64,000 nucleotides of DNA. It comes from Aquariibacter albus (lineage in GTDB: Bacteria > Pseudomonadota > Gammaproteobacteria > Burkholderiales > Burkholderiaceae_C). The notes beneath the pieces are model-generated. The model saw only the letters and a list, made by a program, of their open reading frames with translations. It was not told where the DNA came from and searched no databases. Shown in pieces: positions 13,452-63,656 of this stretch; position 1 is the stretch's first letter, and the number at the start of each line of letters is the position of its first letter. The DNA lies in NCBI RefSeq assembly GCF_014145335.1, contig NZ_JACIVI010000004.1:124001-188000 (forward strand), written 5' to 3'. The position numbers were made by a program, and so were the translations under genes.

Positions 13452-13479
13452 GCCACCCGGCCGCGCCCCCACCGCCCCC

Positions 13480-13665: not shown

Positions 13666-13678
13666 AGCGGCGCTTCGC

Positions 13679-13684: not shown

Positions 13685-13766
13685 CTCAACACTCACGAAA
13701 AACGGTTCACCGGTCTGGCGCTGAAGCCTCGGCCCCGGGGCGGCTGGATCACCCAGGGGGTTTGTC

Positions 13767-40824: not shown

Positions 40825-42707
40825 TACTTCGCCTTCTTCTTGGCCTGAATGGCATTCTTGGCAGTCTTGTCGAGAGCCGAGCTTGCTTCCCAAGCATCCA
40901 AGATGGGCCGTGCCCAGCTCTGTTCGTACAGCGAAGGGATGATTCCGGGCCCAATCTTGGCGACGGGAGCCGCCTTTAGTAGCTCACTCGCCTGGACAGC
41001 CAGCTCCGGGAAAACCTTGCAAGGCTCGATGAGTGTGGTGACATCTTCGGCCAAGCGCCAGGTTCGCTTACCAGCCCGCAACTGCCAAGCCCTCGCCATC
41101 GCCATCCCAGCCTGCGCGGCATCGACCGCCTTAATGGCTGCAGTCAGCGGCGCGTTGGAGGCCGTGGCGACAACCAAAGCGTCCCGCAATGCACGACCTG
41201 CGGCCGTCATGTTGTCCGCGCCGAACTCCCGAGTTGCAGTGTCCCGGCTCAGGTGCAGCAAGGGACGCAGGTCCATTTCTCCGAGGGCTGGTTTCAGTTG
41301 GAGCCACTCACGCGCGAAGGCCTCATCGTTGACCTTGAACGGGTCTGGGAGCGCCTTGGAGGGGTCCTTGGCGACTTCTTCCGCAGCCTGAAGTGCAGGT
41401 ACGCGACCGTCCGACCCGGACGTCACAAGGGCAGCCAGGGCGTTCGCCAGAGGCTCGTTGCATCGCTCAACAAGATGCCATTTGGCGAGGGCAGGGATGT
41501 CCAGCTTGATGCCCTGAGGCTCAGCCAATGCCGAGCGGAGGTACACCGTGTTCAAGAATCGCTTCATCAAGCGCGGATTGGCCTTCACACTGGATGTGGT
41601 CAGCAGCGGCGCCAAGCCCTCGGCCAGCTCCATCAGGGCAACCATCGGTGTGTTCTCCAAGCCAGCCTGCGCCTGCAGGAATTCGGTCGACACGGCGTCA
41701 CCGCGCCAACTGGTTTGCAGTCGCTCCGGGATGGCCTTCTTGGCAGCGTTGAACTTCTGCTCGTCAAAAATTCCATCTGCGTGCGCCCGCTCCATGAGCA
41801 GGAGCGCCAAGTAGGCCTTCGCCTCGTTGGTGCCGAGCCTTGGAACATGCAAGGGCACCTGTATGAGCTTGTCGAAGTAGTTCGTCTCGACCTCCCCCGA
41901 TATGCCCGTACCCTCGAAGTGCACGCGCACCGCACCTTTTATGAACTCGTTGTCCGCTGCTATGACGAAGGCGCTGCGCTTGAGGAACAGGAGCAGGCGT
42001 ATCGACTCCAGGGTCGAGATGGCGGTCTTGGGAAGACAACGGTCCAAGTCATCCACGAAGACAACAAGCGTGACCTTCAGCTCATCAAGCAGCTCCTCGA
42101 GAGCATCACGGAACGCTTGAATCTCGCTTGGCAGCGACACTGGCTCCGCTGGCTTGAGTAAGGCATCGCCCTTCTCCTTGCCGGCTATTTCCTTGTCCTC
42201 GTCATCATCGGCCTCGTCCGGGTCGTCGGCATCGTCCTTGCCGCCGAGCCCGAAGAATCCGCCAACCTTCATGATGGCCGAGCCGATGCTGCCGACGGGA
42301 ACCCCCGTGTAGAGCGTCGCTGCAGCTTCGCCACCCAACTGGGCCAGTCGAAGCAGGTTGATGCGCTTCAGTACCTTCTTGGCCTTCTTTAGCAGGGTCT
42401 CATCCTTCGCCGCAAGGCGAAGTACCTCGTCTCCCACGAGCTGAAGTAGAGCACTCCGAGCACCCTCGAAATCCTGGTACAGCCACGGGTTGAACGTCAC
42501 GACGACGTAGGTGTTCTTCCCCGGCGTGTCGGCATTCTTCAGCCGCCCCTCAATCATGCGCACCAATGAAGTCTTCCCTACACCCCAACCACCGGAGATG
42601 CCGACAGAGATGGGAGTCCCCTTGGCTTGCTGCAGGAGCTTTGCGCAGGCGTCAGCGACGACGCCGAAATTCAGATAGTCAACCGTTGTTTCGTTGTCAG
42701 ACCACAT
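40824..42707 (-). CDS. qatA: Qatuor defence protein QatA (KAP-family P-loop NTPase)
   Basis: The 627-residue protein has Walker A GISGGWGVGKTSLVRMIEG near residue 40, an acidic insertion (DDADDPDEADDDEDKE) near residue 160 and Walker B VVFVDDLDRCLP near residue 218. This is the KAP NTPase pattern. KAP proteins in defence systems are proposed sensors or oligomeric platforms. An AGGA-containing ribosome binding site lies ahead of the ATG. It is the first gene of the system. Confidence 0.9.
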   Translation of the reverse strand: MWSDNETTVDYLNFGVVADACAKLLQQAKGTPISVGISGGWGVGKTSLVRMIEGRLKNADTPGKNTYVVVTFNPWLYQDFEGARSALLQLVGDEVLRLAAKDETLLKKAKKVLKRINLLRLAQLGGEAAATLYTGVPVGSIGSAIMKVGGFFGLGGKDDADDPDEADDDEDKEIAGKEKGDALLKPAEPVSLPSEIQAFRDALEELLDELKVTLVVFVDDLDRCLPKTAISTLESIRLLLFLKRSAFVIAADNEFIKGAVRVHFEGTGISGEVETNYFDKLIQVPLHVPRLGTNEAKAYLALLLMERAHADGIFDEQKFNAAKKAIPERLQTSWRGDAVSTEFLQAQAGLENTPMVALMELAEGLAPLLTTSSVKANPRLMKRFLNTVYLRSALAEPQGIKLDIPALAKWHLVERCNEPLANALAALVTSGSDGRVPALQAAEEVAKDPSKALPDPFKVNDEAFAREWLQLKPALGEMDLRPLLHLSRDTATREFGADNMTAAGRALRDALVVATASNAPLTAAIKAVDAAQAGMAMARAWQLRAGKRTWRLAEDVTTLIEPCKVFPELAVQASELLKAAPVAKIGPGIIPSLYEQSWARPILDAWEASSALDKTAKNAIQAKKKAK

Positions 42708-42941: not shown

Positions 42942-44087
42942 CTACAGTGGCAACTGCTCTTGGTCGACAAAACGACCTGTCGTTCGAAGGGTGGGCAGAA
43001 GCTGCCCATCGGTGTACCTGCAACCAGTCGCTTCCAGAGCCTTCTGCCCCTGCTTTTCGGCAGCCTCAGGCGAATGGCCACGACCGTCATTGAGTGCTTC
43101 CAGCATCGGCGCGTAGCCAGGCTCCCAAGCAGTCAGGCCCTGGAAGCTGCTCCGCATGGCCGAGAGGATGCGCATACCCGCCCAGTCGAGGTCACCCCAA
43201 AAGTACGCCGGCACGGCGACCTTGCCGAACAACCAGGCTTCGAACGCAACCCGGAGGTCCCCACCTAGGGCGCCCTTGCTGGAATAGAACAGCGAACATC
43301 CACCGGCGCTACGCAGACGCTGGGCGCTGCCCTTGAAGCCCGATGCGTATACGAGGGCTAGTCCCTCAAACGCACCGCTGGTCGAGCGCACGGCCCGCTC
43401 AAAGCTCGCGAGGTTCTCGACGAACAGTATGGCGCGGTACCCGGTAGTAGGCAGGTGCACCTGCAGTTGGATGGGCGACTCCGGGAACGGACAGTCGTCG
43501 ACGCCCAGCATTGCGGCGACAAGGCCTTGCCGCTTGTCCAGCACCTTGGACATGCCCCAGAAGAGCTGCGAGGACACCTCGCGCAGCAGCATGGGTTTGT
43601 CGGCAAACGCCGGGAGCCGGTTCAGCTGATGGACAACTTCGGCCATCGAGTGGTCAGGCATGTCGATGCAGTAGTCGCCGACCGCACGCTTAACCGCTTC
43701 GGTCGCTTCCAGTCCCATGTTCACTGCGTCGCGCCAGCGTTCGACGGAACTGCGCGGCCGTTCAGGGCGCCCAACTGCCCGCCGAACGGCCTCCTCGTCG
43801 GTGACCGTAACTCGCGGCGAGGACGCGTACCCAGAACGGGACTTGAGTGCCGTTTCCGGCTTGACCTGCAACCAACCCCACTTCGCCATGGCGACGACGT
43901 GCTCCCACAGGTCTTCCTTCGCAGACTCCATGGGCGACTTGTAGAGGGCGGGCCACGTGCGCTCCCCCAGCGCTACAGACTGCGCCTTGGCACTACCGCG
44001 CTGCTCGGCCGAGTCCAGCCGGTCGACGAGCAGCCCCAGCAGCTCGCGCACCGGAGCGAATTGCAGCCAAAGGGGTGTAGGCGTCAC
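42942..44087 (-). CDS. jetD: Wadjet defence protein JetD (Toprim-like nuclease subunit)
   Basis: The 381-residue protein combines an N-terminal DUF3322-like helical region with a Toprim-like C-terminal domain, where ILFVENLASFE (glutamate) and AYFWGDLDWAGMRIL (DxD) supply the metal site. JetD cleaves plasmid DNA after the SMC complex has extruded it. It is the last of jetABCD, coupled by ATGA. Confidence 0.9.
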   Translation of the reverse strand: MTPTPLWLQFAPVRELLGLLVDRLDSAEQRGSAKAQSVALGERTWPALYKSPMESAKEDLWEHVVAMAKWGWLQVKPETALKSRSGYASSPRVTVTDEEAVRRAVGRPERPRSSVERWRDAVNMGLEATEAVKRAVGDYCIDMPDHSMAEVVHQLNRLPAFADKPMLLREVSSQLFWGMSKVLDKRQGLVAAMLGVDDCPFPESPIQLQVHLPTTGYRAILFVENLASFERAVRSTSGAFEGLALVYASGFKGSAQRLRSAGGCSLFYSSKGALGGDLRVAFEAWLFGKVAVPAYFWGDLDWAGMRILSAMRSSFQGLTAWEPGYAPMLEALNDGRGHSPEAAEKQGQKALEATGCRYTDGQLLPTLRTTGRFVDQEQLPL

Positions 44088-47000
44088 TTGGGCGGCTCCA
44101 GCGCCTCAACAGGCTCTGCAGCGGCAAACGCCAGCTTGGCCTGCTCGCGAACTGCAGCGCGCTGCTTCTCCCACAGGTCACGCATGCGGTCCTTCCTGAA
44201 GACGCGCTCGTCGCACTCCAGGATGAAGTCGAGCTCCCCGTTTTCCGGCACGGTGACTCGGGAGTAGCTGTATTCGCGGTCGAACTCCGGTCGCAGGCCA
44301 CCGGCGCCGCGGGTCGGCATCGCGCTGATGACCTGGATGTCGAGGCTGTCGCGCAGGTACTTCAGCACTGCGCGAGCGCGGGCTTCGTCCATGCGGGAGA
44401 ACGACTCATCGCTCGCCACCATGCGAAGGCTCGCACCCTTCTCGAACAGCTTGAGCCGGTTCGTGACGACGGCGGCCCGAACGATGTAGGCGGGAGTTTC
44501 GAGCTGGCCGCCGGAGCCGGTGCCCCACGTCGACAATGCGATACGTCCACCGCTGTCGGAGTCGTTCCAGATTTCGTAGCGCCGGTAGTTTCGGTAGTCG
44601 GCGATGCGCAGCAACTCCCGTCCAGCACGTTCATGGTCGGGGTCGAGAAGCAGCTTCACCAGCCGGTCGCGCACTTCAACGTGCTTTGGTGACAGCTCGG
44701 ACTCTCCAAAGAGGTCCACGCTCTCGGGCAAGTCCGCCAGCTCCGTGACTGCAGCAAAGAACCCGTAGTACTCCTGGAACTCCGGCTCCCACTTCGACCA
44801 GTCGATGCTGAAGCGGTCGGTGCCGAACTTCAGCCGCTCGAGCTCGACGTTCAGCTGCCGCAACGCGCGGACGCCGTCGTCCACCTTGCTCTTGATTTCG
44901 ACGCAGAACTGCTTGGTGAACACGTCGTGGAAGGAGCGCTCGGCCTCCTCCACCTTGGCGCGGTTGTTGTACAGCCCGATGCTCTCGAGCTCGCCATGGA
45001 GAGCACTGACTGCTCGGCCGAGCGTGACTAGCGGGCCATAGTACGGGTCGAAGCTGGTCGCTTCGTGGTGGTGCGGCAATGCCGACTGGAACCGCTCTTC
45101 CTGGCGTACGCTGGCGTTGTACTCGGCCAGCATTTCGCGTACTTCTCCGAGCAAGCTCTCCGGCTGGGTGCGCAGAAAGTTCAACCGGACTTGCACTCCG
45201 TGAACGTCGATGGTCCTCGAAGACAGCAGGTCATCGACTTCCTGCGCAAGGACCGTGTACGTCTTCTCGGGGTTGGCCTCGCACAGGTGCTTCAGCCGCC
45301 GAATCTGGCTTTCGCGTTCTTGGAACCGGGCATCGCGGCCGTTCTTGATGCGGTCGATGACCTTGTCGGCGTCCAGCATGCGCTGGTTGGCGAGCGCCAC
45401 GGAGGTGTTGGCCGCCTTGATTTCTCGGTCGTGTTCTTCAATCAGGTCTTCGAGACGCTTCAGCTCAGCGCGCAGTTGCTCGACCTCGGTCAGGTCCAGC
45501 TGCGCTAACGAGCGGCGCACGCTGTCGATGTCGCCCGCGAATTCGGAAAGTGGCGCCGCGTCGAACGTCGGCTCCCGCAAGCCAGTCAGTACACGCCGAA
45601 AGTCTCCGAGCCCGTTTTGGAGTCGTTCCAGGTCCACGATTTCCCGGTCTGTCTGCTCCAGCTGTTCCGTTGTCGCTTGAAGCGCACGCTCCCGCGCCTT
45701 GCGCCCGAGGACCAGGTCGCGCCGTTCGCCAACGAACATCGTGCGCGAGCCGCTGCCTTTGCCGTCCTTGGTCAGCCCGCGAGGCGTGAACCGCAACTGC
45801 GCCGAGTCCTTGACCTTGACCACGGAGCCGTACTGCTCGATGAAGTAGGCCTTCGCAATCGGGTGGTCGGTGCGCAGTTCGTGGATGATGGAGTTTTGTG
45901 GAACACGCGATGCGTCGGCACGCTCCAGGCAGTGCTTACCTTGCACGACCTTCGACCGAGAGCTCCAAGACTGCAAGAAGTCGATGGTTCGAGCTTCCCA
46001 CTCCGGCTTCACGATGAGGTTGAAGCGAGCGTTGTCGAGGTAGCCCTCGATGGCCTGCTGCCACTCGTCCGACACAGGCTCGACCAGGTCGCAAAGAACC
46101 TGCACGCCAGCGTCGGGCAATCGCTCCCGAATTCGGTCCAGAGCCAGCACCGTGTCGCGGCTGTAGTTGCCGGCGCCGGCCGCAAGGCGTTCCTTGCGCT
46201 CCGCCAGTTCCTTGCGGTCCCTGCGCGCAGTGTCGATGCGTTGGCTCAGCGCCGTGGCCTCCGTAGCCACCGCGGTGAGGACGCTCTCGTTGGGGCCGAC
46301 CATCGCGGCCTGAAGTACGCCCAGGCCCGCTTCGACACCGTCGAAGGCCGGGGCCAGCTGGAACAGCTTCTCGACGACCAGCTCGGTGTCGCGGTTGGCG
46401 TCGACAACGGCATCAAGCAAGCCACTGAACCGAGCCACGTTGGTCGACGCGATGGCTTGTGCCACCGCGGCTACGGAAGCCCTCAGCTTCGGGAACTGCT
46501 CGGGGATTGGCCGCCTAACCAGCCCGTCAGCCGCGTTCTTGATTTGTGCCGCCGAGTACAGACCGGCGTGCAGCTCTGACAGCTTGGTACGAGCCCCTGA
46601 GCTTGCCCGAGCGAGCCGTTCATCCAGGGCTTGCTTCTCGGTGTGGGCGGGGATGCCCCGCAACTTGGCGGCGATGTCGATGCGGCTGCTATCAACACCC
46701 TTCTTCAGCTGCTCTTCGGTCTTGGCCTTCTGCCCGTACCGCTCGACCAACTCCATGTCGTCCCCGATGCGCTTCTGTTCCTGCGCAATCCGGTCGTCGT
46801 CCGCTGCCAGCTGCATCTTTGCCAGGAGCAGGTCGTACTGCACCTGATACTCAAACGTCGACGCCGTCTTCCCGATGAGCTCCTTCATCTCGCGCAGACG
46901 TCCGACGGTGGCTTCCAGCCGCTTACCTTCCTGCTTGAGGTTGGTGACCTGCCGCATGAGGTCGCTGATGCGGCTGATGCTCTCTTGCAGCAGCTTGCCA

Positions 47001-47716
47001 TCGAACTCGAGGATGTCGTCGCGCACCAGGTCGTGCACCAACCCGATGGGCTTGTAGGCAATCGACTGCGACCAGGCCTTGGCCGCGTTCTGAGCTTCGT
47101 CCCAGGGGATGGAGTTGCGACCTCGGAACCGACCGTAGATGCCGCACAGGTAGTCGCGCTTGTGGTCGTCGTAGGTGACGACCTTTGGGTACTTTGCCTT
47201 CAGGCGCTTGACGACTTCCTCGACGGGAACGCAGACGCCCTGGTCCATGTCATCGAAGAACTCCTCGACCGACAACGCGGCCTCCTCGACGATGACGAGC
47301 ACCAGCCGTTCGAGCTTGGCGTCTCGGCGTTCGCCGACGCCGTCGACCCGCGCCGCGACCCCCACCAATGCCGTGAACATCTTGGCAGCGCCATCGTTCG
47401 GTCCTGGTCGAAAGACCGCGGCCACATACCCGTGCGCACCCGCTGGACGCGAGAACAGGCTGTACTCGGCGCCGGTCACGAAGGACTCGAGCGTGCGCTT
47501 CGACTTGCCACGACGCTGCCCAGGCTGGACCTCTTCCTGGCCCGGGTTGTAGGCGACGATGCCCTGGTAGGCCGCCGTCATGACTGTCTGCAGGCCGTCC
47601 AGCATGGTCGACTTGCCCGCGCCCGTGGGGCCGGTGAGCAAGGTCATGTTGCCAAGCTCGTAGTTGCCGGGTCGTAGCTGGCCCCAGTTCACAAGAACCA
47701 TTCGGTCGACCTTCAT
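44084..47716 (-). CDS. jetC: Wadjet defence protein JetC (SMC/MukB-like ATPase)
   Basis: The 1210-residue protein has Walker A LLTGPTGAGKSTMLDGL near residue 32, long coiled coils through the middle, an SMC signature-like STWGTGSGGQLETP near residue 1090 and Walker B MVASDESFSRMDEARA soon after. This is the condensin-like motor of Wadjet, which extrudes DNA loops and selects small circular DNA. It is coupled at both ends. Confidence 0.93.
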   Translation of the reverse strand: MKVDRMVLVNWGQLRPGNYELGNMTLLTGPTGAGKSTMLDGLQTVMTAAYQGIVAYNPGQEEVQPGQRRGKSKRTLESFVTGAEYSLFSRPAGAHGYVAAVFRPGPNDGAAKMFTALVGVAARVDGVGERRDAKLERLVLVIVEEAALSVEEFFDDMDQGVCVPVEEVVKRLKAKYPKVVTYDDHKRDYLCGIYGRFRGRNSIPWDEAQNAAKAWSQSIAYKPIGLVHDLVRDDILEFDGKLLQESISRISDLMRQVTNLKQEGKRLEATVGRLREMKELIGKTASTFEYQVQYDLLLAKMQLAADDDRIAQEQKRIGDDMELVERYGQKAKTEEQLKKGVDSSRIDIAAKLRGIPAHTEKQALDERLARASSGARTKLSELHAGLYSAAQIKNAADGLVRRPIPEQFPKLRASVAAVAQAIASTNVARFSGLLDAVVDANRDTELVVEKLFQLAPAFDGVEAGLGVLQAAMVGPNESVLTAVATEATALSQRIDTARRDRKELAERKERLAAGAGNYSRDTVLALDRIRERLPDAGVQVLCDLVEPVSDEWQQAIEGYLDNARFNLIVKPEWEARTIDFLQSWSSRSKVVQGKHCLERADASRVPQNSIIHELRTDHPIAKAYFIEQYGSVVKVKDSAQLRFTPRGLTKDGKGSGSRTMFVGERRDLVLGRKARERALQATTEQLEQTDREIVDLERLQNGLGDFRRVLTGLREPTFDAAPLSEFAGDIDSVRRSLAQLDLTEVEQLRAELKRLEDLIEEHDREIKAANTSVALANQRMLDADKVIDRIKNGRDARFQERESQIRRLKHLCEANPEKTYTVLAQEVDDLLSSRTIDVHGVQVRLNFLRTQPESLLGEVREMLAEYNASVRQEERFQSALPHHHEATSFDPYYGPLVTLGRAVSALHGELESIGLYNNRAKVEEAERSFHDVFTKQFCVEIKSKVDDGVRALRQLNVELERLKFGTDRFSIDWSKWEPEFQEYYGFFAAVTELADLPESVDLFGESELSPKHVEVRDRLVKLLLDPDHERAGRELLRIADYRNYRRYEIWNDSDSGGRIALSTWGTGSGGQLETPAYIVRAAVVTNRLKLFEKGASLRMVASDESFSRMDEARARAVLKYLRDSLDIQVISAMPTRGAGGLRPEFDREYSYSRVTVPENGELDFILECDERVFRKDRMRDLWEKQRAAVREQAKLAFAAAEPVEALEPPK

Positions 47717-48384
47717 TCGTCGGCCTCCTGCACAGTCGCCTCCGGCTCGACAACCCCGTCCGCGTCCAGCGCCGCACTCAGCGCGTCGTTGGAGACGATG
47801 CCGAGGATGGTGGGCCGAATGGCCAGGAGCGCGTCTTCATCCGCGATGGCGAACTCGGCCGAGTAGCTCAGCAAGCGATGCCGCTTCAACTCGGCCAGCA
47901 AGGCCATCTTGTCGCCCATGCCGTTGGGCAGCGGCCGCTTCAGCTGGGTTTGCATGGTTGCGGCGATTTCCTCGAAGCTGACGAGAGCTTCTCCCTGCGG
48001 CTGAATGTCGCCGGAGTTCAGCTTGTTCTGGTACAGGAAGCGCAGCGCCAACGCCATCGCTACGAAGTCCGGCGAAACACGCGCCCGCAGCGACGGGGTG
48101 GCCTCGAACTCGTCTTCGGGTAGGCCGTCAACAACGGCGCCGGCGGCATACAGCCGGTAGAACTGGTTGTTGCTGTCGTGATGCAGGCGGAAGCCGGCGA
48201 CATCGAAATAGTCCTCTAGCAGGCCCTCGATGCGCCTGGCGTCGTCGTACAGGAGTTGCTCGACGCGGTCTTCATCGCGGACGATGACACCGTAGGCCAT
48301 GAGCCGGGTCAGGATTTCGCGCAGCCGGTCCTGCTTGAGGTTGGCCAGGGCGAGCTGCTCGTTGATGACGCTGGAGATGGTCAT
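47713..48384 (-). CDS. jetB: Wadjet defence protein JetB (DUF4194-like kleisin-associated subunit)
   Basis: The 223-residue protein is helical and winged-helix-like (LREILTRLMAYGVIVRDEDR; FRLHHDSNNQFYRLY) and ends in an acidic tail. Its place between jetA and jetC with overlapping starts, and its size, fit JetB, the MukE/KITE-type subunit. Confidence 0.85.
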   Translation of the reverse strand: MTISSVINEQLALANLKQDRLREILTRLMAYGVIVRDEDRVEQLLYDDARRIEGLLEDYFDVAGFRLHHDSNNQFYRLYAAGAVVDGLPEDEFEATPSLRARVSPDFVAMALALRFLYQNKLNSGDIQPQGEALVSFEEIAATMQTQLKRPLPNGMGDKMALLAELKRHRLLSYSAEFAIADEDALLAIRPTILGIVSNDALSAALDADGVVEPEATVQEADE

Positions 48385-49853
48385 TTCTTCAGAGAGATTT
48401 CGTAGTCGTTGCCGCTGTAGAACTCGTTCTCCAGTCGGGTTGGGAGCTTCTTTGTCACCAGGTCGGTGCCGACGTCGCTGCGCGCGGCCTCGACGGCCTG
48501 CATGGCGCGGATGACGTCCCGCGCAGTCGCGGTGGGCATTGCAGAGACTCGGATGGGGTGCTGGAAGACGCGAAGGTCCGCACGCAACCCTTGGGCGACC
48601 TCCTCGTTGGCGATGGAGAAGGCCTCGGATTCAGCTCGAGCCAAGGCCGCAGCGAGTCGTTCCTCCCGCGAAGGGCGGGGCCGGATAGAGACAACGACCG
48701 CTTTGCGTCGCTGCGTCGCAGACTTCAGCTTGAAGCTAGCCGGGTCCAGCACCCGGACCTCCGCCGGTGCCAGATAGTGACCAACGTGCGCGAGCAGCCG
48801 GTCCTGCTCTTCCCGAGGGGCCTCGGCCAGCTTCTGAATGGTGGCCAGGTACGCATGTCGAGTCTGGCCGGCGCGCAGCATCATCGACTGCAGCGCCAGG
48901 CCGTTGACGCGCTTCAAGTACGTCTCCATCGCCTTGAGGAAACTCGGCTGTTTGGACTGGCACGCGGCATCGACGATGTCTTCGATGCGACTGAGCAGCC
49001 ATTCGTAGACCGATGCGCCGGAGTGTTCTTTCACGGCCCAGTGCGCGATGTCTCGCAGTTGCTCGTCCATCCGCTTGAATTTGGGCTCGGCCACCAGCCG
49101 GAGCTTCTCGAGCTTCAGGGCGATGGCCTGTCGATTCAGGGTTGCGTTGTCTGCGGTCAGCTGCTTGGAGTAGTCGCGCTGGAAGCGGTCCAGGAACTCT
49201 CCGAACTCAGCCCACTGATTGCGCGCAGAAGCTGCCTGCATCAGGTGACGAACCAGCTCCTGGAAGTAGTCGATGCCGTCCGTCAGGTCTTCGATGACCT
49301 TCTCGGCGTACTCGTAGGCATCAACCAGGTCGTGAGCGTCGCCACGCTCGGAGAGGGCCGCTTCCAGGGCGTTGCGGCAGCTCCGCATGTTGCGCTGTCG
49401 GCTGCGGCTTGGCCGGTCGAGCGACCAGATGGCCTCGGCGAAGAGCTTGCCAGGGCGCGAGAAGCGGAAAGCCGTCACCAGCCCCGTGCGGTCGGCGAAC
49501 TGCTCGAGCCAGCCATCAGCGAGCAGCGCTCGGATAACCATGCTGACCAAGACCTGGGGGTCGTCGGTCCCCGGTGCACTGAGCTCGTCGTCACCGCCTT
49601 CCTCAACCGCGAAGCTTTGGTATTCCCGAACGACCGGGAAGAGCAGCTCGCGAAGGGCTTCGCGCGTCAGGTTGTGGGCGTAGTCCGCAGTTGGGCCATG
49701 CAGGCGGTCGAACAGCGCTCGCAGGCATGCTGCCACGAGCTCGCGCCGTGCACTGTTGAGCGGACGGAAGAAGCGCAGGCGCTCACCCTCGAAGAACGTG
49801 GTGCGTCCCTCGGGGCTCTTCGCCGTGGGGTCAACTTTTTCAACCTGGCTCAA
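48381..49853 (-). CDS. jetA: Wadjet defence protein JetA (MukF/kleisin-like subunit)
   Basis: The 490-residue protein has an N-terminal winged-helix-like region (FFEGERLRFFRPLNSARREL) and long helices, as expected of the kleisin JetA. It is the first gene of the jet operon. The start is TTG 49853, supported by AGGGAG with a six- to seven-base gap. The sub-type of Wadjet cannot be fixed from motifs alone. Confidence 0.88.
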   Translation of the reverse strand: MSQVEKVDPTAKSPEGRTTFFEGERLRFFRPLNSARRELVAACLRALFDRLHGPTADYAHNLTREALRELLFPVVREYQSFAVEEGGDDELSAPGTDDPQVLVSMVIRALLADGWLEQFADRTGLVTAFRFSRPGKLFAEAIWSLDRPSRSRQRNMRSCRNALEAALSERGDAHDLVDAYEYAEKVIEDLTDGIDYFQELVRHLMQAASARNQWAEFGEFLDRFQRDYSKQLTADNATLNRQAIALKLEKLRLVAEPKFKRMDEQLRDIAHWAVKEHSGASVYEWLLSRIEDIVDAACQSKQPSFLKAMETYLKRVNGLALQSMMLRAGQTRHAYLATIQKLAEAPREEQDRLLAHVGHYLAPAEVRVLDPASFKLKSATQRRKAVVVSIRPRPSREERLAAALARAESEAFSIANEEVAQGLRADLRVFQHPIRVSAMPTATARDVIRAMQAVEAARSDVGTDLVTKKLPTRLENEFYSGNDYEISLKK

Positions 49854-49900
49854 CTTCGCGCTCCCTGCGGTCTTGCTTCTGGCTGGCTGTCGCTTGGGGT

Positions 49901-49929
49901 ATTATCTTCCTGGATAATTTATCACGCAA
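49901..49929 (-). promoter_or_regulatory. Promoter of the jetABCD operon
   Basis: On the minus strand TTGCGT (49924-49929) and GATAAT (49901-49906) are separated by exactly 17 bases, a good sigma-70 promoter. It would start transcription about 40 bases before the jetA TTG. Both hexamers lie inside the two palindromes described in the next entry. Confidence 0.65.
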
Positions 49930-49934
49930 GATAA
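49902..49934. promoter_or_regulatory. Twin palindromic operator TTATC-N6-GATAA
   Basis: Two perfect copies of TTATC-N6-GATAA occur at 49902-49917 and 49919-49934, 17 bases apart. They occupy the jetA promoter and end three bases before the ATG of the divergent WYL-domain gene. This is where an autoregulating repressor would bind. Confidence 0.75.
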
Positions 49935-49936
49935 CA

Positions 49937-50782
49937 ATGTCCAAGCTCCATCCACTCAGTCCAACGCAACAGCGCATGCGTGAGATGGAGGTATTGCTGA
50001 CGTGGGAAGGTGAGCTCGACAACGCCAGGCTGCGCGAAGTATTCGGTGTGCAGGCAGTACAGGCGAGCCGCCTTCTTTCTGCGTTTGTGGCCGAGTACGG
50101 CACCGCTCTGACGCGAGCCTCTCCGCATGCACCGGTCACCCCGACGAAGCTGTTCCAGCCTCGTTTTGCCGGCAACTCACCCGATGAGTACCTCCGGCTC
50201 GTTGAGAGTGTCGGCCCCACCGCCCGCAGCTTCGCTGTTGAGGACCTCCGCTTGGACCTGTCGCCGGTGTCCTCGCCACTCTTCGCCCTTGCGACGAGGG
50301 CGTGCCTGAAGCAGGTGGGTCTGCAGATTCGGTACCGGTCATTGGCGCAGCCAGATGGACACGACCGACTCATCTACCCTCACTCCCTCGTCAGAGCGGC
50401 ACGGCGTTGGCACGTTCGAGCCTGGTGCTCCCAACGAACGGCCTTCAGAGACTTCGCGCTGGGCCGCATCAGCAAAGGGGCCGTTGAAGGCTCACCCAGT
50501 CCGGCTACCAAGGAGGTCGACCGGGACTGGAACGAATTCGCGAAGCTGGAAGTTGTTGCGCACCCGGAACTACCGGCTGGCCAAGTCCAACTGCTGCAGG
50601 ATGAGTACTTGGGCAGTTCAACGAACCGAATTCTGGAAGTGCGCCGATGTCTGGTGGGCTACACCGTTCAGGACCTGCGCTTGGCAACGGATATTCGCCG
50701 GCACTCGCCTCCTGAGTTCCAGTTGCTTCTGAAGAACGCGGACGAGTTCAGCAGCGTTTTTTCGATTCGCGGAGCTGCATAA
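49937..50782 (+). CDS. WYL-domain transcriptional regulator (BrxR/CapW-like)
   Basis: The 281-residue protein has an N-terminal winged helix (TWEGELDNARLREVFGVQ), a central WYL domain (QIRYRSLAQPDG ... RWHVRAWCSQRTAFRDFAL), and a C-terminal WCX-like extension. This is the architecture of BrxR/CapW repressors that guard BREX, CBASS and similar systems and release DNA on ligand binding. It lies divergent to jetA and directly upstream of the hsd operon. The twin palindrome overlaps its own promoter. Confidence 0.85.
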   Translation: MSKLHPLSPTQQRMREMEVLLTWEGELDNARLREVFGVQAVQASRLLSAFVAEYGTALTRASPHAPVTPTKLFQPRFAGNSPDEYLRLVESVGPTARSFAVEDLRLDLSPVSSPLFALATRACLKQVGLQIRYRSLAQPDGHDRLIYPHSLVRAARRWHVRAWCSQRTAFRDFALGRISKGAVEGSPSPATKEVDRDWNEFAKLEVVAHPELPAGQVQLLQDEYLGSSTNRILEVRRCLVGYTVQDLRLATDIRRHSPPEFQLLLKNADEFSSVFSIRGAA

Positions 50783-50968
50783 ATGTCGGCATGTGTCCTG
50801 TCATCCGAAGGCTTCATTTCCCTCGTCGACATAGGCGTGCCGAAACTGAAGAACCCCAAGGGGCAGAGCCGCTGGAATAGGCCTTTTGACTTGGACGACA
50901 GCTGGTCGCACACGCACTGCTGCTTTCCACCGGCGCCACCAGAATGCTCGCAAATTGCCCAACAATAA
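50783..50968 (+). CDS. Small ORF coupled to the WYL gene and to hsdM
   Basis: The 61-residue frame starts in TAAATG directly at the stop of the WYL gene, with GGAG about eight bases before the ATG. It ends in TAATG that overlaps the hsdM start. hsdM itself has no visible ribosome binding site, so its translation may depend on this frame. The predicted peptide ([20 protein letters not shown] at the N-terminus, a CC pair near the end) matches nothing I know. It could be a leader peptide or a real small protein. Confidence 0.45.
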
Positions 50969-52809
50969 TGAACCACCAAGCCCTTTCCTCCTTCATCTGG
51001 TCCGTCGCCGACCTGCTGCGTGGCGATTTCAAGCAGAGCGAGTACGGCCGCGTCATCCTGCCGTTCACCGTGCTGCGCCGTCTGGACTGCGTGCTGGAGG
51101 CCACCAAGCCCGCCGTGCTGACCGAGTTCGCGGCCAAGACCAAGGCCGGCCTGAACCCCGAGCCCTTCCTTCTGCGCAAGGCTGGGCAAAGCTTTTTCAA
51201 CACCTCCCCACTGGACCTGGGCAAGCTTTTGGGCGACCAGGACCACATCCGCCAGAACCTCTACGCCTACGTCCAGGCCTTCTCGCCGGCGGCACGGGAC
51301 ATCTTCGAGCGCTTCGATTTCCACGCCCAGGTCGAGCGGCTGGCCAAGGCCAACCTGCTGTACCTGGTCACCGAAAAGTTCGCCAACATCGACTTGCACC
51401 CTTCGGTGGTCGACAACGCCAGCATGGGCGCGGTGTTCGAGGAGTTGATTCGCAAGTTCGCGGAAATCAGCAACGAGACCGCCGGGGAGCACTTCACGCC
51501 CCGGGAAGTCATCCGTCTGATGGTGAACCTGCTGTTCATCGAGGACGACGACGTGTTGACGCCCGGCAACGCCGTGGTCCGGACCATCTACGACCCCACG
51601 GCGGGCACCGGTGGCATGTTGTCCGTCGCCGGGGAGTATCTGGCCGAGCACAACCCGCAGGCGCGGCTGACGATGTTCGGCCAGGAACTCAACGATGAGT
51701 CCTACGCCATCTGCAAGGCGGACATGCTCATCAAGGGCCAGCCCGTGGAGAACATCGTCGCCGGCAACACCCTCAGCGACGATGGTCACGGCGGGCGCAA
51801 GTTCGACTACATGCTTTCCAACCCGCCCTTCGGCGTGGAGTGGAAGAAGGTTGAAAAGCAGGTCCGCCAGGAACACGAGCAGAAGGGCTTCGACGGCCGA
51901 TTCGGCCCCGGCCTGCCGCGCGTCAGCGACGGCTCCATGCTGTTCCTGATGCACTTGCTGAGCAAGATGCGCCCGGCTGCGGACGGCGGCAGCCGTTTCG
52001 GCATCGTGCTGAACGGCTCACCGCTGTTCACCGGCGGGGCTGGCAGTGGCGAGAGCGAAATCCGCCGCTACGTGCTGGAGAACGACCTGGTGGAGGCCAT
52101 CGTCGCGCTGCCCACCGACATGTTCTACAACACCGGCATCAGCACCTACGTCTGGGTGCTGTCCAACCGCAAGCCGGCCGACCGCAAGGGCTACGTGCAA
52201 CTCATCGACGCCAGCGGCCTCTGGCAGAAGATGCGCAAGGGCTTGGGCAGCAAGCGGAAGGAGATGAGCGAGGAGCACATCGCCACCGTCACGCGGCTGT
52301 TCGGCGACTTCACCGAGGCGTGGCAGGTCACGACCATCGACGCTGCGGGTCAAGCCTTGGGTGAACCCGTGCTGGTGACCAACACCAGCACCGCACCAGT
52401 GGCTCCGGAAGGCGGTCGCCTCAAGCGCGTGCCCGTCGCGCGCATCTTCCGCAATGAGGACTTCGGCTACACGACCATCACGGTGGAGCGCCCGCTGCGT
52501 GACGAGGCCGGCCAGGTTGTGGTCGGCCTGAAGGGCAAGCAGAAGGGCAAGCCCCAGGCCGACAGCGCACTGCGCGACACCGAGAACGTGCCGCTCTCCG
52601 AGGACATCCACGCCTACTTCAAGCGCGAGGTGGTGCCGCACGCACCGGACGCGTGGATAGACGACGAGAAGAGCAAGGTCGGCTACGAGATTCCGTTCAA
52701 CAGGCACTTCTACGTGTTCGAGCCGCCACGCAGCTTGCACGTCATCGACGAGGAACTGAAGACGGTGACCGCCAGCATCATGAAGATGTTGGAGGAGTTG
52801 GCGGAATGA
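50968..52809 (+). CDS. hsdM: Type I restriction-modification methyltransferase subunit
   Basis: The 613-residue protein has the HsdM N-terminal helical domain, the AdoMet motif [14 protein letters not shown] (about residue 208) and the catalytic SNPPFG (about residue 286), giving N6-adenine methylation. It is somewhat longer than EcoKI HsdM. The start ATG 50968 gives MNHQALSSF. An upstream ATG at 50944 also lacks a ribosome binding site. It is coupled to hsdS by ATGA. Confidence 0.95.
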
Positions 52810-54113
52810 GTTTGCCGCGGTACGGAGCGTACAAGGACAGTGGGGTCGAGTGGCTGGGGCACATACCGGAGCACTGGGGCACCATGCAGAGTCGTCGCAT
52901 GTTTGCCGTGCGCAGCGAGCCGGCGCTGCCGACGGACCGCATGCTGACGGCGTCGCAGAAGTACGGGGTACTTTTCCAATCCGACTTCATGGAGCTGGAA
53001 GCTCGGCGGGTTGTCGAAGTCATCATGGGCACCGACAGCTTGAAGCATGTCGAGCCCGACGACTTCATTATCAGCATGCGCAGCTTCCAGGGCGGCATCG
53101 AGTGGTGCAAGCTTCGCGGGTCCACGAGCTTTCACTACGTGATGCTCCGGCCGGTCAAGCATGTGTGGCCGCCTTACTTTGCGCACCTGCTCAAGTCACC
53201 GACCTACATCCAGGCCCTGCGCCGAACGACCGACCTCATCCGTGACGGGCAGGAACTCCGCTTCTCCAACTTCGCGCAGGTCGACCTTCCGGTTGTGCCG
53301 TTAGATGAGCAGAAGGCGATTGCCATCTTCCTCGACCGCGAAACCGCCAAGATTGATGCGCTGATTGCCGAGCAAGAGAAGCTCATCGCCCGGTTGGCCG
53401 AGAAGCGTCGGGCAACCATATCCCATGCCGTCACCAAAGGCCTGAACCCCTACGCTCCGATGAAGGATTCCGGCGTGGAGTGGCTGGGGGAGGTTCCTGC
53501 ACATTGGGACATCGTGCGTGTCAAGGCACTCAGCCAATTCACGACGAGCGGCCCGCGCGGATGGTCAGACCGCATCACGGAAAGCGGCAGCCTGTTCATC
53601 CAGAGTGGAGACCTGAACGATTCCCTAGGGCTTGAGCTTGAAACTGCCAAGCGTGTGAATGTCGGTGACGACGCAGAAGCGGCGCGGACGCGCCTAAGCG
53701 AAGGCGATGTGGTCGTTTGCATCACGGGTGCAAAGACCGGGAACGTCGCTCTCTGCGAATCACTGCCAGAGCCGGCCTATGTCAACCAGCATCTTTGCCT
53801 TGTCCGTCCATCGGAAGATGTGCACGGGCGCTTCCTTGCGCTCTCGCTGAAAAGCAGCGTGGGGCAGACACAAATCGAGCTTTCGCAGTACGGACTCAAG
53901 CAAGGTCTCAGTCTGGAAAACGTCCGCGAACTCTTGGTGACGCGTCCGCCGCGTCAGGAGCAAGAGGCTATTGTCGAGTTCCTCGACGAGGAAGCCGGCA
54001 AACTCACTGCGCTCGCGCTCAACGCGGCAGCGGGTGTGAGCCTGTTGAAGGAGCGCCGCAGCGCCCTCATCGCCGCGGCGGTCACTGGCCAAATTGACGT
54101 GCGCAACGCCTAA
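52806..54113 (+). CDS. hsdS: Type I restriction-modification specificity subunit
   Basis: The 435-residue protein has two target-recognition domains, each opening with the same phrase ([15 protein letters not shown] at residue ~10; [15 protein letters not shown] at ~220). Each ends in a coiled-coil spacer ([34 protein letters not shown]). HsdS chooses the bipartite sequence methylated by HsdM and cleaved with HsdR. Confidence 0.94.
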
Positions 54114-54138
54114 GAACCACAAGACCAGGGAGAAAGCC

Positions 54139-56256
54139 ATGAGCCACACGCTCACCGCCAAGGAACAGTCGCTCGCCAAGATATTCAGCGACGACTACGT
54201 CTTCACCATTCCCGGCTACCAGCGGCCCTACGCCTGGGGTCGTGACCAGGCTCAGGAGTTGTTGGATGACCTTCTGGGCGCACTGGCGGCCGCGCCGGCG
54301 CAGCTGGCCGATGCGGCGCCATACTTTCTGGGCAGCATCGTGCTCATCAAGGCCGAGGCGATGCCCGAAGCCACGGTGGTGGACGGCCAGCAGCGGCTGA
54401 CGACCTTGACGCTGCTGCTGTCCGCCATCCGTGCCACGGTCGGGGATGACGAACTGCAAAAGGACATCACCGGTTGCATCTACGAGAAGGGCAGCCTGGT
54501 GAAGGGCACCCAGGCCCGCTACCGCCTGTTGTTGCGCGAGCGCGACCGCGACTTCTTCCGGCAGTATGTGCAGCACGAGAACGGTCTTCAGGCGCTGGCC
54601 CAGGTCAACACACCTCTGCCTGACGCGCAAGGCCGCTTGCGCGCCAACGCACAGGTGTTCATGGACGGGCTGGCCAAGCTGTCGCAGGCGGAGCTGGTGC
54701 GCCTGGTGCAGTTCGTCATCACCCGCTGCTACCTGGTGACGGTGGCAACGCCCGACCTGGACTCGGCCTACCGCATCTTCGGCGTGCTGAACAGCCGCGG
54801 CCTGGACCTGAGCGCCACCGACATCCTCAAGGCGGAAATCATCGGCGGCATCGCGCCGGCGCTGCGTGACGCCTACACGAAGAAGTGGGAAGACGAGGAA
54901 GAGGACCTGGGCCGGGACGAGTTCGGCGACCTGTTCAGCCACATCCGCATGGTCTATCGCAAGGCCAAGCCGCAGGGCACGTTGCTGAAGGAGTTCAAGG
55001 AGCACGTCGTGCCGGCGAAGCAGCCGCAGCAGTTCATCGACGAGGTGCTGCTGCCGATGGCCCAGGCTTTCAGCGAGCTGCGCGACGCGGACTACGCCAG
55101 CACGCACCACGCCGAGGAAGTGAACGAGCATCTGCGTTGGCTGAACCGCCTGGAGTTCAAAGACTGGGTGCCGCCGGCCCTGACCTTCTTCGTGCGCCAC
55201 CGACAGCAGCCCGCCGCCGTGCTGGGCTTCTTCCGCGACCTGGAACGCCTGGGCTACTCGATGCTCGCCCGCAGGTCGGGCGTCAACGACCGCATCGAGC
55301 GGTTCTCTGCGCTGACGAACGCTGTCGAGGCGGGTGCCGACCTGTCGGCTGCCACCTCGCCCTTGCAGCTCTCACCGGAGGAGCAGCACCAGACCTACAC
55401 GGCCCTGAGCGGCCCGCTGTATGACACCCACTCGTCGCGTGCCCTGGCGCTGCTGCTGCTTCGCCTGGACCGCCTGATGTCAGACGCCAGTGCCAGCTAC
55501 CAGCACGAGGTCGTTTCGGTCGAGCATGTGATGCCCCAGCAACCGGCGCCCAACAGCCAGTGGGCCACCTGGGTGCCCGACAAGACTGCACACCAGCTGT
55601 GGGTGCATCGCCTGGGGAACCTGGCGCTGCTGAGCCGCAAGAAGAACAGCTCGGCCAGCAACCGCGACTTCAGTTGGAAGAAGTCCGCCTACTTCACAAA
55701 GGGCGGAACAACGGCCTTCGCGCTGACCACCCAGGTGCTCCAGCACACGGATTGGACGACCGAGGTGATGCAAGCGCGCCAGGACGCCATGCTTGCCAAG
55801 CTGGAATCACATTGGCGCTTGCAAGACCGCAAGAGCAAGGCCGCATTGGCCGAAGCGCTGCTCGCCGAGCTGGAAGGCGCCGGGGACGCCGTGCCCTTCG
55901 AGCTCGAAAGTGCCAAGCACGGGCTGAACGCCACGGCCAAGGAGCTGGGCAGCACCTTCACCGTGCTGGCGGGCTCCCAGGCTCGACTCGCATGGTCCGG
56001 GCAGCCGCACTCGTACCAACAGTTGCGAGATGACCTTCGCGGCGCCGGCATCTTGAAATTGTCGGAAGACGGTTCCCATCTCGTCTTCACTGCCGACACG
56101 CCTTTCAAGAGCCCGAGTGCCGCCTCGGCCACCGTGCTCGGCCGCACTGACAACGGCCGCAACTCCTGGCGGCTCAAGGGCAGCGCCATCACCTATGCGG
56201 CCTGGCAGGACAACCTGCCCAGCTCTCAGCCGACATCCGGACGTTCGGAGGACTGA
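54139..56256 (+). CDS. DUF262-DUF1524-DUF4357 protein inside the hsd operon (GmrSD-like)
   Basis: The 705-residue protein has an N-terminal DUF262/ParB-like domain (PGYQRPYAWGRDQ; VVDGQQRLTTLTLL). The DUF1524 HNH-type domain (VEHVMPQ ... HRLGNLALLSRKKNSSASNRDF) is near residues 460-510, and a C-terminal DUF4357-like domain follows. DUF262+DUF1524 is the architecture of GmrSD-type, modification-dependent nucleases, here with an added DUF4357. The ATG has GGGAGA six to seven bases upstream. It sits between hsdS and hsdR, so it is probably co-expressed with them. Confidence 0.8.
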   Translation: MSHTLTAKEQSLAKIFSDDYVFTIPGYQRPYAWGRDQAQELLDDLLGALAAAPAQLADAAPYFLGSIVLIKAEAMPEATVVDGQQRLTTLTLLLSAIRATVGDDELQKDITGCIYEKGSLVKGTQARYRLLLRERDRDFFRQYVQHENGLQALAQVNTPLPDAQGRLRANAQVFMDGLAKLSQAELVRLVQFVITRCYLVTVATPDLDSAYRIFGVLNSRGLDLSATDILKAEIIGGIAPALRDAYTKKWEDEEEDLGRDEFGDLFSHIRMVYRKAKPQGTLLKEFKEHVVPAKQPQQFIDEVLLPMAQAFSELRDADYASTHHAEEVNEHLRWLNRLEFKDWVPPALTFFVRHRQQPAAVLGFFRDLERLGYSMLARRSGVNDRIERFSALTNAVEAGADLSAATSPLQLSPEEQHQTYTALSGPLYDTHSSRALALLLLRLDRLMSDASASYQHEVVSVEHVMPQQPAPNSQWATWVPDKTAHQLWVHRLGNLALLSRKKNSSASNRDFSWKKSAYFTKGGTTAFALTTQVLQHTDWTTEVMQARQDAMLAKLESHWRLQDRKSKAALAEALLAELEGAGDAVPFELESAKHGLNATAKELGSTFTVLAGSQARLAWSGQPHSYQQLRDDLRGAGILKLSEDGSHLVFTADTPFKSPSAASATVLGRTDNGRNSWRLKGSAITYAAWQDNLPSSQPTSGRSED

Positions 56257-56258
56257 AG

Positions 56259-59200
56259 ATGTCGCTGCACCAAGAACATCACTTCGAAGCAGAAATCTGC
56301 CAGCACCTGGCTGCCCACGGTTGGCTGCATGAGCCCGGTGACGCCGCCCTGTTCGACCGTGCCAACGGCCTGTTCCTGCCCGACCTGCTGGCCTGGGTGC
56401 AGGCCACCCAGCCCGAGAGCTTCCAGCGCCTGAGCAAGACGCATGGCGCGGCCTTGCCCAAGGTGCTGGCCGAGCGGGTGCGCAAGAGCCTGAACGAGCG
56501 CGGCACGCTGGAGGTGCTGCGGCGCGGGGTCGAGATGCTGGGCCTGAAAGGGCCGCTGATGCTGGCGCAGTTCAAGCCGGCGCTGGCCATCAACCCCACC
56601 ACGCAGGCGCACTACGCAGCCAACCGGCTGCGTGTCGTGCGTCAGGTCTGCCACTCGCCGAACAACCCGAAGGAAGAGCTGGACCTGGTGCTGTTCGTCA
56701 ACGGCATCGCGGTGGCCACGGCCGAACTCAAGTCCGACTTCACCCAGAGCGTGCACGACGCGGTCGACCAGTACCGCTTCGACCGCCATCCTGCGCCCAA
56801 GGGCGGCGTGCTGGAGCCGCTGCTGGGCTTCCCGGGCGGGGCGCTGGTGCACTTCGCGGTGAGCCAGTCGGAAGTGATGATGACAACCCGGCTGGCCGGG
56901 CCGGCGACCACCTTCCTGCCCTTCAACCGCGGCAACGCCGGTGGTGCGGGCAATGCGCCCAACCCGGATGGCTTTGCGACCGCCTACCTGTGGGAAGAGG
57001 TCTGGGCGCGCGAGAGCTGGCTGGACATCCTGCACCGATATTGCATCGGCAAGCGCGACGACAAGAAGCAGCTCAAGGCGGTCATCTTCCCGCGCTACCA
57101 CCAGCTCGACGCGACCCGGCGCCTGGTGGCCGACGTGCTCGAGAATGCGGACCAGGATGGCACCGGCCAGCGCTACCTGATTCAGCACTCTGCCGGCTCG
57201 GGCAAGACGAACTCCATCGCCTGGACGGCGCACTTCCTGGCTGACCTGCACAACGCGGCACACAAGAAGGTGTTCGACAGCGTGCTGGTCGTCTCGGACC
57301 GCAACGTGCTGGACGCGCAGCTGCAGGAAGCCATCTTCGACTTCGAGCGCACCACCGGCGTGGTGGCGACCATCACCAGCGAGCACGGCAGCAAGAGCGC
57401 CCAGCTGAGCCAGGCGCTGAAGGACGGCAAGAAGGTCATCGTCTGCACCATCCAGACCTTTCCGTTCGCGCTGTCCGCCGTGCAGGAGCTGGCGGCCACC
57501 GAGGGCAAGCGCTTCGCGGTAATTGCCGACGAGGCGCACAGCTCGCAGAGCGGCGAGGCGGCAGCGAAGCTCAAGCAGCTGCTATCGGCGCAGGAATGGG
57601 CCGACCTGCAGGACGGTGGCGAGGTCGACACCGAGGCCCTGCTGGCCGCGCAGATGGAGGCGCGTGCCGGCGCGGGCGTCGCTGGAGGCACAGGGGGCCT
57701 CACCTACATCGCCTTCACCGCCACGCCCAAGGCCAAGACGTTGGAGCTGTTCGGGCGACCGGGGCCGGACGGGCTGCCGATGCCCTTCCACGTCTACTCG
57801 ATGCGCCAAGCCATCGAGGAAGGCTTCATCCTCGACGTGTTGAGGAACTTCACCAGCTACAAGTTGGCCTTCAAGCTGGCGCATGACGGCAAGGAGTACG
57901 ACGAGACGCAGGTCGAACGCAGCACGGCGATGAAGGGCATCATGCAGTGGGTCCGCTTGCATCCCTACAACATCGCCCAGAAAGTGCAGGTCGTCGTCGA
58001 GCACTACCGCGAGAACGTCCAGCCGCTACTGGCCGGGCGCGCGAAGGCAATGGTGGTGGTGGCCAGCCGCAAGGAGGCGGTGCGATGGCAGAAGGCCATC
58101 CGTGCCTACATCACCCAGCGCAACTACGCGTTGGGGGTACTGGTCGCGTTCTCCGGCGAGGTCGACGACACCGAGAGCTATCCGCAGCCCGTGTCCGAGA
58201 CCAGCAAGGTCCTGAACCCGGGGCTGAAGGGCCGCGACATCCGCGAGGCCTTCAATGAACCCGAGCACCACCTGCTGCTGGTGGCCAACAAGTTCCAGAC
58301 CGGCTTCGACCAGCCGCTGCTGTGCGGCATGTACGTCGACAAGATGCTCGGCGGCATCCAGGCGGTGCAGACGCTGTCGCGCCTGAACCGCGCGCATCCG
58401 GGCAAGGACACGACCTACATCCTCGACTTCGTCAACGAGGCCGGCGACATCCTCAAGGCCTTCAAGACCTACCACGAGACGGCTGAGCTGGAGGCTGCGA
58501 CCGACCCGCACCTGGTCTACGACCTGCGCGCCAAGCTCGATGCGACCGGCCACTACGACGACTTCGAGGTCGACCGCGTGGCCAAGGTCGACCTGGACCC
58601 GCAGGGCACGCAGAAGCAGCTTGATGCGGCCATTGCGCCGGTGGCCGACCGGCTGCTGAAACGCTACAAGGCCGCGCAGCAAGCCAGGTCGGACGCCGTG
58701 GAACTGGACGACGACAAGGCCGCCAAGGTGGCGAAGGACACGCTCGATGCCCTCGTGCTGTTCAAGAACGACATGGGCGCCTACGTGCGCCTGTATGCCT
58801 TCTTGAGCCAAATCTTCGACTACGGCAATACGGACATCGAGAAGCGCTTCCTGTTCTACAAACGCCTCATCCCGCTGCTGGACTTCGGCCGCGAACGCGA
58901 CACGGTGGACCTGAGCAAGGTGGTGCTGACGCATCACACGCTGAAGAATCAGGGCAAGCAGCCGATGGGTCTGGGCCAGGACGGCAACTACAAACTCCCA
59001 CCGATGGACGCGGTGGGCAGCGGTTCCGTGCAAGAGAAGCAGCAGGCCTACCTGGTCGAAATCATCCAGAAGGTGAACGGCCTGTTCGAGGGCGAGCTGA
59101 CCGACGACGACCAACTGGTCTACGTGAACGGCGTTCTCAAGGGCAAGCTGCTGGAGAACGAGACACTGGTGCAGCAGGCGGCCAGCAACTCGAAGGAGCA

Positions 59201-63524: not shown

Positions 63525-63656
63525 TGAATGCTCCACGCCGGTGTGCAGAGCACGTGACGACCGGCTGCGCCCGTTCGTGCCCGCTGGTGCATCGGTTCGG
63601 CCCCAGCTGGCACGTCTAGCCCACCTGTTTATTCCTTTCGTCGTCACGCTCGGATT

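Follow-up and report, generated by a model that had tools for sequence, protein, structure and literature searches.

A WYL-domain regulator gene of Aquariibacter albus stands divergent to a complete operon for type I Wadjet, a plasmid-cutting defence system, with two perfect palindromes in tandem between them. The locus is part of a 64,000-nucleotide stretch of contig NZ_JACIVI010000004.1 (positions 124,001 to 188,000, forward strand), which we call the window and in whose coordinates all positions are given. We consider it probable that the WYL protein is a dedicated repressor of the divergent Wadjet operon that acts through tandem operators, regulates its own gene and is released by a ligand, and that the restriction (hsd) genes on its other side are a separate cassette. 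The elements at the centre of this reading are the following.

49937 to 50782, plus strand: WYL regulator of the BrxR/CapW type, 281 amino acids, start codon uncertain (Pfam WYL; PDB sequence matches; AlphaFold model and PDB fold matches)
48381 to 49853, minus strand: jetA, with a TTG start (Pfam JetA; PADLOC JetA1, 2.1e-230)
47713 to 48384, minus strand: jetB (DUF4194; PADLOC JetB1)
44084 to 47716, minus strand: jetC, an SMC-like ATPase of 1210 amino acids (AAA_29 and SbcC_Walker_B)
42942 to 44087, minus strand: jetD, the nuclease subunit (JetD_C)
49902 to 49917: candidate operator 1, TTATCTTCCTGGATAA (exact palindrome; array test)
49919 to 49934: candidate operator 2, TTATCACGCAAGATAA (exact palindrome; array test)
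49901 to 49929, minus strand: jetA promoter candidate TTGCGT-N17-GATAAT (read from the sequence; consensus scan and weight matrix)
49877 to 49905, plus strand: WYL promoter candidate TTCTGG-N17-TATTAT (weight matrix; equalled in 1.8% of random coding windows)

All four genes of a type I Wadjet system are present in the order jetA-B-C-D and form one operon on the minus strand (42942-49853), separated from the WYL gene by 83 base pairs (bp). Within this intergenic region, the twin TTATC-N6-GATAA palindromes that an initial annotation of this DNA had pointed out proved to be perfect at both positions, spaced 17 bp from start to start with 1 bp between them; that annotation had let them end three bases before the WYL start, whereas two bases lie between the end of the second palindrome at 49934 and the ATG at 49937. 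It had also placed them on the jetA promoter TTGCGT-N17-GATAAT, which is indeed found on the minus strand (49929-49901), although an overlapping alternative, TGGACA-N16-TAAATT (49943-49916, minus strand), scores slightly higher by both consensus scan and weight matrix and is preferred. The palindromes span much of either jetA candidate, and the -10 element of the WYL promoter candidate overlaps operator 1, so the palindromes overlap the predicted promoters of both divergent genes. The motif was absent from 100 shuffles of the whole window, and 5000 dinucleotide shuffles of 49881-49946 gave one site in a single case and two sites in none. In the genome (3,313,822 bases in 11 contigs), where the initial annotation had proposed a search for further copies, the exact motif occurs at just these two positions and a reversed-pattern control not at all. 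A pattern search for weaker sites, with one mismatch allowed, added 3 sites compared with 1 for the control pattern. A chance origin of the palindromes is ruled out by the shuffles together with this uniqueness, and a genome-wide regulon found no support in further exact sites.

We propose that one WYL dimer would bind each palindrome and that two dimers, on sites 17 bp apart, would block the overlapping jetA and WYL promoters. Since the sites cover both promoters, the protein would shut off Wadjet and its own gene together, and as 17 bp corresponds to ~1.6 helical turns, the two dimers would sit on largely different faces of the DNA. A ligand in the WYL pocket would then release the repressor and turn Wadjet on; by analogy with CapW and BrxR, this ligand would most likely be single-stranded DNA (ssDNA) arising from damage or from an invading element.

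The regulator itself resembles known repressors of defence systems. While a Pfam scan recognised the WYL domain alone, the nearest solved relatives found with phmmer were Pseudomonas aeruginosa CapW (7tb5, 3.6e-29) and BrxR (7t8k, 1.2e-28). The AlphaFold model (mean pLDDT 91.4) is predicted to combine winged helix-turn-helix (wHTH), WYL and WCX domains in one chain, whose 281 amino acids fall within the ~280-300 expected of such regulators. All 15 of its best fold matches in the PDB were BrxR or CapW chains (268-288 aligned columns), led by DNA-bound BrxR with a TM score of 0.77 and including two chains of CapW with single-stranded DNA (9c5g). By hand mapping on the sequence alignment, seven of the eight pocket residues given for CapW in PMC9122588 (Tyr145, Ser147, Trp156, Arg169, His171, Arg183, Phe185 and Arg189) are identical here (Y133, S135, R157, H159, R171, F173 and R177); Trp156 of the pocket is replaced by R144, and the allosteric Trp170 is kept as W158. 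Of the CapW DNA-binding residues, likewise mapped by hand, Gln45 and Ser47 are kept (Q42, S44) and Ser42 and Arg32 are changed (to Q39 and N29), the latter not being conserved in BrxR either. That two of four such residues differ fits a different operator. The assignment of the WYL gene product as a BrxR/CapW-type regulator is well supported by the modelled fold. The same comparison bears on the idea that the protein activates Wadjet, as PafBC or DriD do for their targets, with the palindromes as activator sites. WYL proteins do include activators bound with RNA polymerase (structure titles 9fnd and 9pfq), but here the sites cover the core promoters instead of standing upstream, and in fold and sequence the protein comes closest to BrxR and CapW, both of them repressors (TM score normalised by the query 0.59-0.77), and is far from PafBC and DriD (0.27-0.35), which makes activation very unlikely.

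The pairing of this regulator type with Wadjet recurs in other genomes. Among species genomes, a scan yielded 242 confirmed encoding stretches, the best 80 of which were retained as loci (numbered with the prefix L), and a scan of 399 genomes of the family matched 8 of them, the own genome included, with 9 matches in all; flanks from the family scan comprised 20 kb for L135 and L136 and ~1.5 kb for L004 and L100-L104. In a tree of 30 sampled regulators, 13 had been picked as outgroup out of 66 loci (L031-L097 except L044). A 100/100 branch separates these from the other 17, all of which stand beside an SMC-type operon. Sixteen of the 17 are divergent to Wadjet or another SMC-type operon, and one (L030) precedes jetABCD on the same strand. 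The divergent partner is Wadjet I in nine loci (the window, L018, L020-L023, L029, L044 and L136) and a DUF3584 gene in four (L025-L028), accompanied by MksE in L025-L027, while the record of L028 ends there; in L024, L135 and the degraded L019 it comprises a ~1500-residue SMC-like protein and a first gene of ~450-470 residues, the remnant of which was read by eye in L019. The gene behind the regulator, by contrast, lies on the opposite strand in 9 of the 17 and on the same strand in 8, where it varies: hsd (window), an NA37-like gene (L021), a transposase (L023), an MmeI-type enzyme (L026), an AAA protein (L029), jetA (L030), a DUF2779 protein (L044) and an open reading frame, or ORF (L136). 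The closest comparison is Piscinibacter aquaticus (L018), whose regulator is 82% identical over the matched part of the protein and whose DNA is 79% identical over window positions 43044-50750, a span that begins close to the end of jetD and reaches almost to the end of WYL. At this locus no hsd gene is found, and the next gene lies on the opposite strand. Its jetC and jetD are each split over two ORFs (L018:3032-4402), by a frameshift or a sequencing error.

Ten further regulators (L164-L172) were retrieved later by a profile search based on 12 members of the clade, and both these and the same-strand relatives were placed by their best BLASTP neighbours. L172 is closest to the outgroup. An SMC-type operon in divergent orientation accompanies six of the remaining nine: Wadjet I in L164, L165 and L169, a DUF3375-type Wadjet in L171, DUF3584 with MksE in L168 and, in L166, a JetD-like nuclease together with a large SMC-like protein. 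L167a has HipAB-like genes in its place, and L167b and L170, nearest to L030, have no adjoining SMC operon that we could recognise. The relatives L004 and L100-L104, nearest to L030 or L167b, have jetA downstream on the same strand in six of six cases, and the more distant L039 and L041 have jetABCD downstream on the same strand. Among the weaker relatives L005-L017, nearest to the outgroup, no Jet match occurs in the ~1.5 kb flank. Pooled over 32 regulators (17 + 9 + 6), the divergent arrangement with an SMC-type operon occurs in 22 and the same-strand position ahead of jetA in 7, and no SMC-type operon was recognised beside the remaining 3. Judging from these sequence comparisons, the WYL-Wadjet pairing is old. 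Two loci carry a second regulator: L167 has two WYL genes ~8 kb apart, and in L044 a second one (12851-13735) lies near the first. The operons with SMC-like proteins of 1500-1650 residues and a first gene of ~450 residues (L024:2346-6941, L135:2637-7148 and L166:12953-17893) are Wadjet-like, and that of L166 includes a JetD-like nuclease; their large SMC-like proteins are matched by no PADLOC Wadjet model and by almost no Pfam model. Possibly, these operons constitute an undescribed Wadjet-like type.

The palindrome array, too, is conserved in much of the clade. We scored two TTATC-N6-GATAA units 17 bp apart (maximum 20 points) against 300 dinucleotide shuffles per region in 42 regions, each 240 bp upstream of a conserved WEG motif. 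The array reached p <=0.0033 in 12 of the 17 clade members (window, L018-L024, L027, L029, L135 and L136), as compared with 0 of 15 outgroup regulators and 0 of 18 in a separate earlier test. Since the window itself supplied the motif and several arrays of L020-L029 had been spotted by eye before they were tested, this count involves some circularity; the regulators L164-L172, fetched by profile after the motif was known, provide a fairer test. Six of these ten have the array (L164, L165, L167a, L168, L170 and L171), that of L170 being weak, with 14 of 20 points and no single site reaching 8 of 10, while L166, L167b, L169 and L172 lack it. With the first region used for them (130 bp upstream of the longest-ORF start), four of ten were positive at p <0.01, and re-anchoring on the WEG motif added L171 and L170. 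A period of 17 was top among periods 15-22 in 18 of 18 positives, though these had been chosen by that very score. Two to four units are visible per array, with four in L021. In L018, both inner half-sites are changed together (GCTAA/TTAGC for GATAA/TTATC), and TTAGC half-sites also occur in L020, L136 and L164. Furthermore, 17 of 18 regulators with the recognition helix V-Q/W-A/S-S-R/K have the array, L166 being the exception, and regulators with other helices do not, except for the weak L170. No array was detected in the same-strand relatives L004 and L100-L104 (0 of 6), nor in L030, L039 and L041, where jetA is on the same strand. L030, L004 and L100-L104 thus form a sister group that stands before jetA on the same strand without the TTATC-N6-GATAA array. 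For L005-L017 the array test is void because the anchor motif was misplaced in 7 of 13 and absent in one more.

On the other side of the WYL gene, the plus strand continues with the hsd genes, as the initial annotation had observed, across a WYL-hsdM gap of 185 bp.

50783 to 50968, plus strand: 61-codon ORF that overlaps WYL at its own start (TAAATG) and hsdM at its own end (TAATG)
50968 to 52809, plus strand: hsdM, ATG at 50968 (Pfam/PADLOC)
52653 to 54113, plus strand: hsdS as longest ORF, true start probably ~52800 (Methylase_S; PADLOC)
54094 to 56256, plus strand: GmrSD-type gene within the hsd operon, as longest ORF (GmrSD_N, GmrSD_C)
56259 to 59402, plus strand: hsdR (HSDR_N, SWI2_SNF2)

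Relatives of hsdM (E values up to 1e-200) occur in 40 of the 399 family genomes, the own genome included. We examined 29 of the 39 others, with 1470-1500 bp of upstream DNA for 27 and 570 and 664 bp for two, and none of the 29 shared upstream DNA with window positions 49001-50967, the sole match being 19 bp long (E 0.85). In all four cassettes that were aligned (L137-L140), the alignment begins exactly at 50968, the hsdM ATG, and stops at 59365-59381, slightly short of where hsdR ends. A comparison of 30 upstream regions of 200 bp gave only three similar pairs, none of them involving the window. Because the cassettes align from the hsdM ATG onwards with unrelated DNA upstream, the cassette moves independently of the DNA in front of it. 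At third codon positions, GC amounts to 0.90-0.91 in hsdM and hsdR, 0.69 in the WYL gene and the 61-codon ORF, and 0.80-0.82 in jetA and jetC. HsdM and HsdR profiles had no match in the DNA that surrounds 25 other clade regulators, in stretches that were mostly 15-20 kb long, some with less DNA on one side, so a conserved linkage of regulator and hsd, as an RptR-like arrangement would have it, was not observed. The WYL-hsd pairing is not old, since P. aquaticus has jet and WYL genes without hsd and the upstream DNA of the hsdM relatives differs; an old partnership is ruled out by that species, by the clade loci without hsd and by the cassette boundaries. By these comparisons the hsd cassette most likely arrived separately, and its genes look like recent arrivals. 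The GmrSD-type gene is 90% identical in L137, is reduced to its last ~46 codons in L138, has a 29% match in L139 and is missing from L140, and given these differences it is a variable insert of the cassette. In L108, an ORF with an XRE-like helix-turn-helix ends a few bases before hsdM, as read by eye, and is another regulator preceding the same cassette. Elsewhere in the window, a RepC-like gene and an AAA_25 gene, which we take to be RepA-like, form a plasmid-type replication module near the defence genes (61365-63613), and a KAP NTPase gene lies downstream of jetD (40824-42707, minus strand).

How the hsd genes are transcribed depends on the junction. The initial annotation had seen no promoter before hsd other than the one serving the WYL gene. 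Between 50783 and 50967 the plus strand indeed holds no sigma-70-like consensus site and no terminator-like site, and 11.7% of windows drawn at random from the jet and hsd coding DNA reach the score of its best weight-matrix promoter. As the matrix is of the E. coli type, which the promoters of this organism may not fit, an unrecognised promoter is compatible with this result. No relative of the 61-codon ORF, which the initial annotation had not mentioned, appeared in Pfam, PADLOC or plasmid searches, and the 185-bp junction gave only the hsdM start in a plasmid DNA search and short matches (20-46 bp) outside the own genome among the 399 family genomes. The hsd genes, now behind the WYL gene, may be read from its transcript, and in the strongest form of this idea the WYL transcript runs into hsdMS-GmrSD-hsdR, such that the operators govern both Wadjet and restriction in this strain. 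The shared strand, the lack of a good promoter or terminator site in the junction, the TAAATG and TAATG overlaps through the 61-codon ORF, and the fact that relatives of the cassette share no upstream region with the window all speak for it. The pairing is found in none of the relatives examined, however, the hsd genes differ in third-position GC, and E. coli-type scoring may miss a promoter here. Restriction systems, moreover, usually need continuous methylation, which fits badly with tight repression. We regard joint switching as possible but somewhat improbable. We see about an even chance that hsd has an independent promoter, placed either within the 185-bp gap or inside the WYL gene near its 3' end: TTGACT at 50886 is a good -35 element, and since the DNA in front of hsdM differs widely among its relatives, a promoter must be found anew in each case, but the best -10 partner, CACACG, is poor, and the score of the pair is the one that random coding windows so often equal. 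A more specific scenario appears unlikely to us, in which a cassette lacking its upstream DNA, with its boundary at the start codon of hsdM, would have been captured downstream of the self-repressed WYL gene, so that one signal, probably ssDNA, would derepress Wadjet and restriction at once through a single tandem operator; if true, defence islands may come to be co-regulated through such captures behind regulators.

Several findings weigh against reading the WYL protein as the array-bound repressor of a Wadjet operon that has nothing to do with hsd. Five of the 17 clade members have no significant array (L025, L026, L028, L030 and L044), and of these L025, L026, L028 and L044 are divergent to SMC-type operons and must use other sites. 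L166, with the same helix, and L169, with an I-Q-A-S helix, likewise have a divergent SMC-type operon and no array, and L167a has the array next to HipAB-like genes upstream, with no SMC operon recognised. The sequence by itself does not distinguish repression from activation, and a WYL-hsd operon under selection would likewise be expected to show a 61-codon ORF with tight start and stop overlaps. We reject the notion that every clade member has the array, given the five tree members and several later finds without it. Of the initial suggestion that a single regulator switches Wadjet and restriction together, the Wadjet half is well supported by the fold, the sites and the recurring pairing and array, whereas the restriction half found no support as an evolved switch, with no hsd at 25 clade loci and none in P. 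aquaticus. Joint control of restriction would at most be local. As such control in this strain is compatible with a dedicated Wadjet repressor, both can hold.

Among the matches listed in the open-licence literature, we found no paper that explains what keeps Wadjet silent in the absence of an invader, and none that describes a WYL regulator dedicated to Wadjet or an operator for one. In the listed papers that name both Wadjet and WYL, nothing on a dedicated regulator went beyond PMC9122601, which names Wadjet once among the systems co-localised with BrxR-type regulators. A regulator clade attached to SMC-type operons makes the off-state of Wadjet testable, its array motif provides a means to find further SMC-type defence operons, some of them missed by PADLOC models, and its members offer a natural set of recognition-helix and operator pairs.

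The comparison with known systems places the regulator close to BrxR, CapW and RptR. BrxR (PMC9122601, PMC9122589) is a BREX-associated WYL repressor that lies among defence genes and whose own promoter carries a palindromic operator, and the regulator studied here shares the wHTH-WYL-WCX fold (BrxR being its top PDB match), a predicted palindromic site at its own promoter, and defence-gene neighbours. It differs in its partner, an SMC-type defence operon that is mostly divergent, in its recognition helix, and in its candidate operator, a tandem 17-bp array of TTATC-N6-GATAA as opposed to the 11-bp imperfect repeat with a 5-bp spacer of Escherichia fergusonii or the single 25-bp pseudo-palindrome of Acinetobacter. 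CapW, a CBASS-associated WYL repressor whose operator overlaps a -10 element and which in Stenotrophomonas maltophilia occupies one of the two palindromes present in the CBASS promoter (PMC9122588), resembles it in sequence, fold, seven of eight pocket residues, Trp170 and the -10 overlap of the candidate site, but here Trp156 has become Arg144, two of the four mutated DNA-binding residues are changed, and there are two perfect tandem palindromes. RptR (PMC12255303), a repressor of type I restriction operons that heads a defence island with a type I system and has several short promoter palindromes, is likewise a regulator beside a type I system with multiple short palindromes in the promoter, although the link to hsd is not conserved here. 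The Wadjet operon has all four jet genes of type I and differs in the attached divergent WYL regulator and its operator array. Overall, BrxR and CapW repressors beside many defence systems were already known, and what appears to be new, from sequence comparison and measured against the literature searched, is a Wadjet-attached clade with a tandem 17-bp array.
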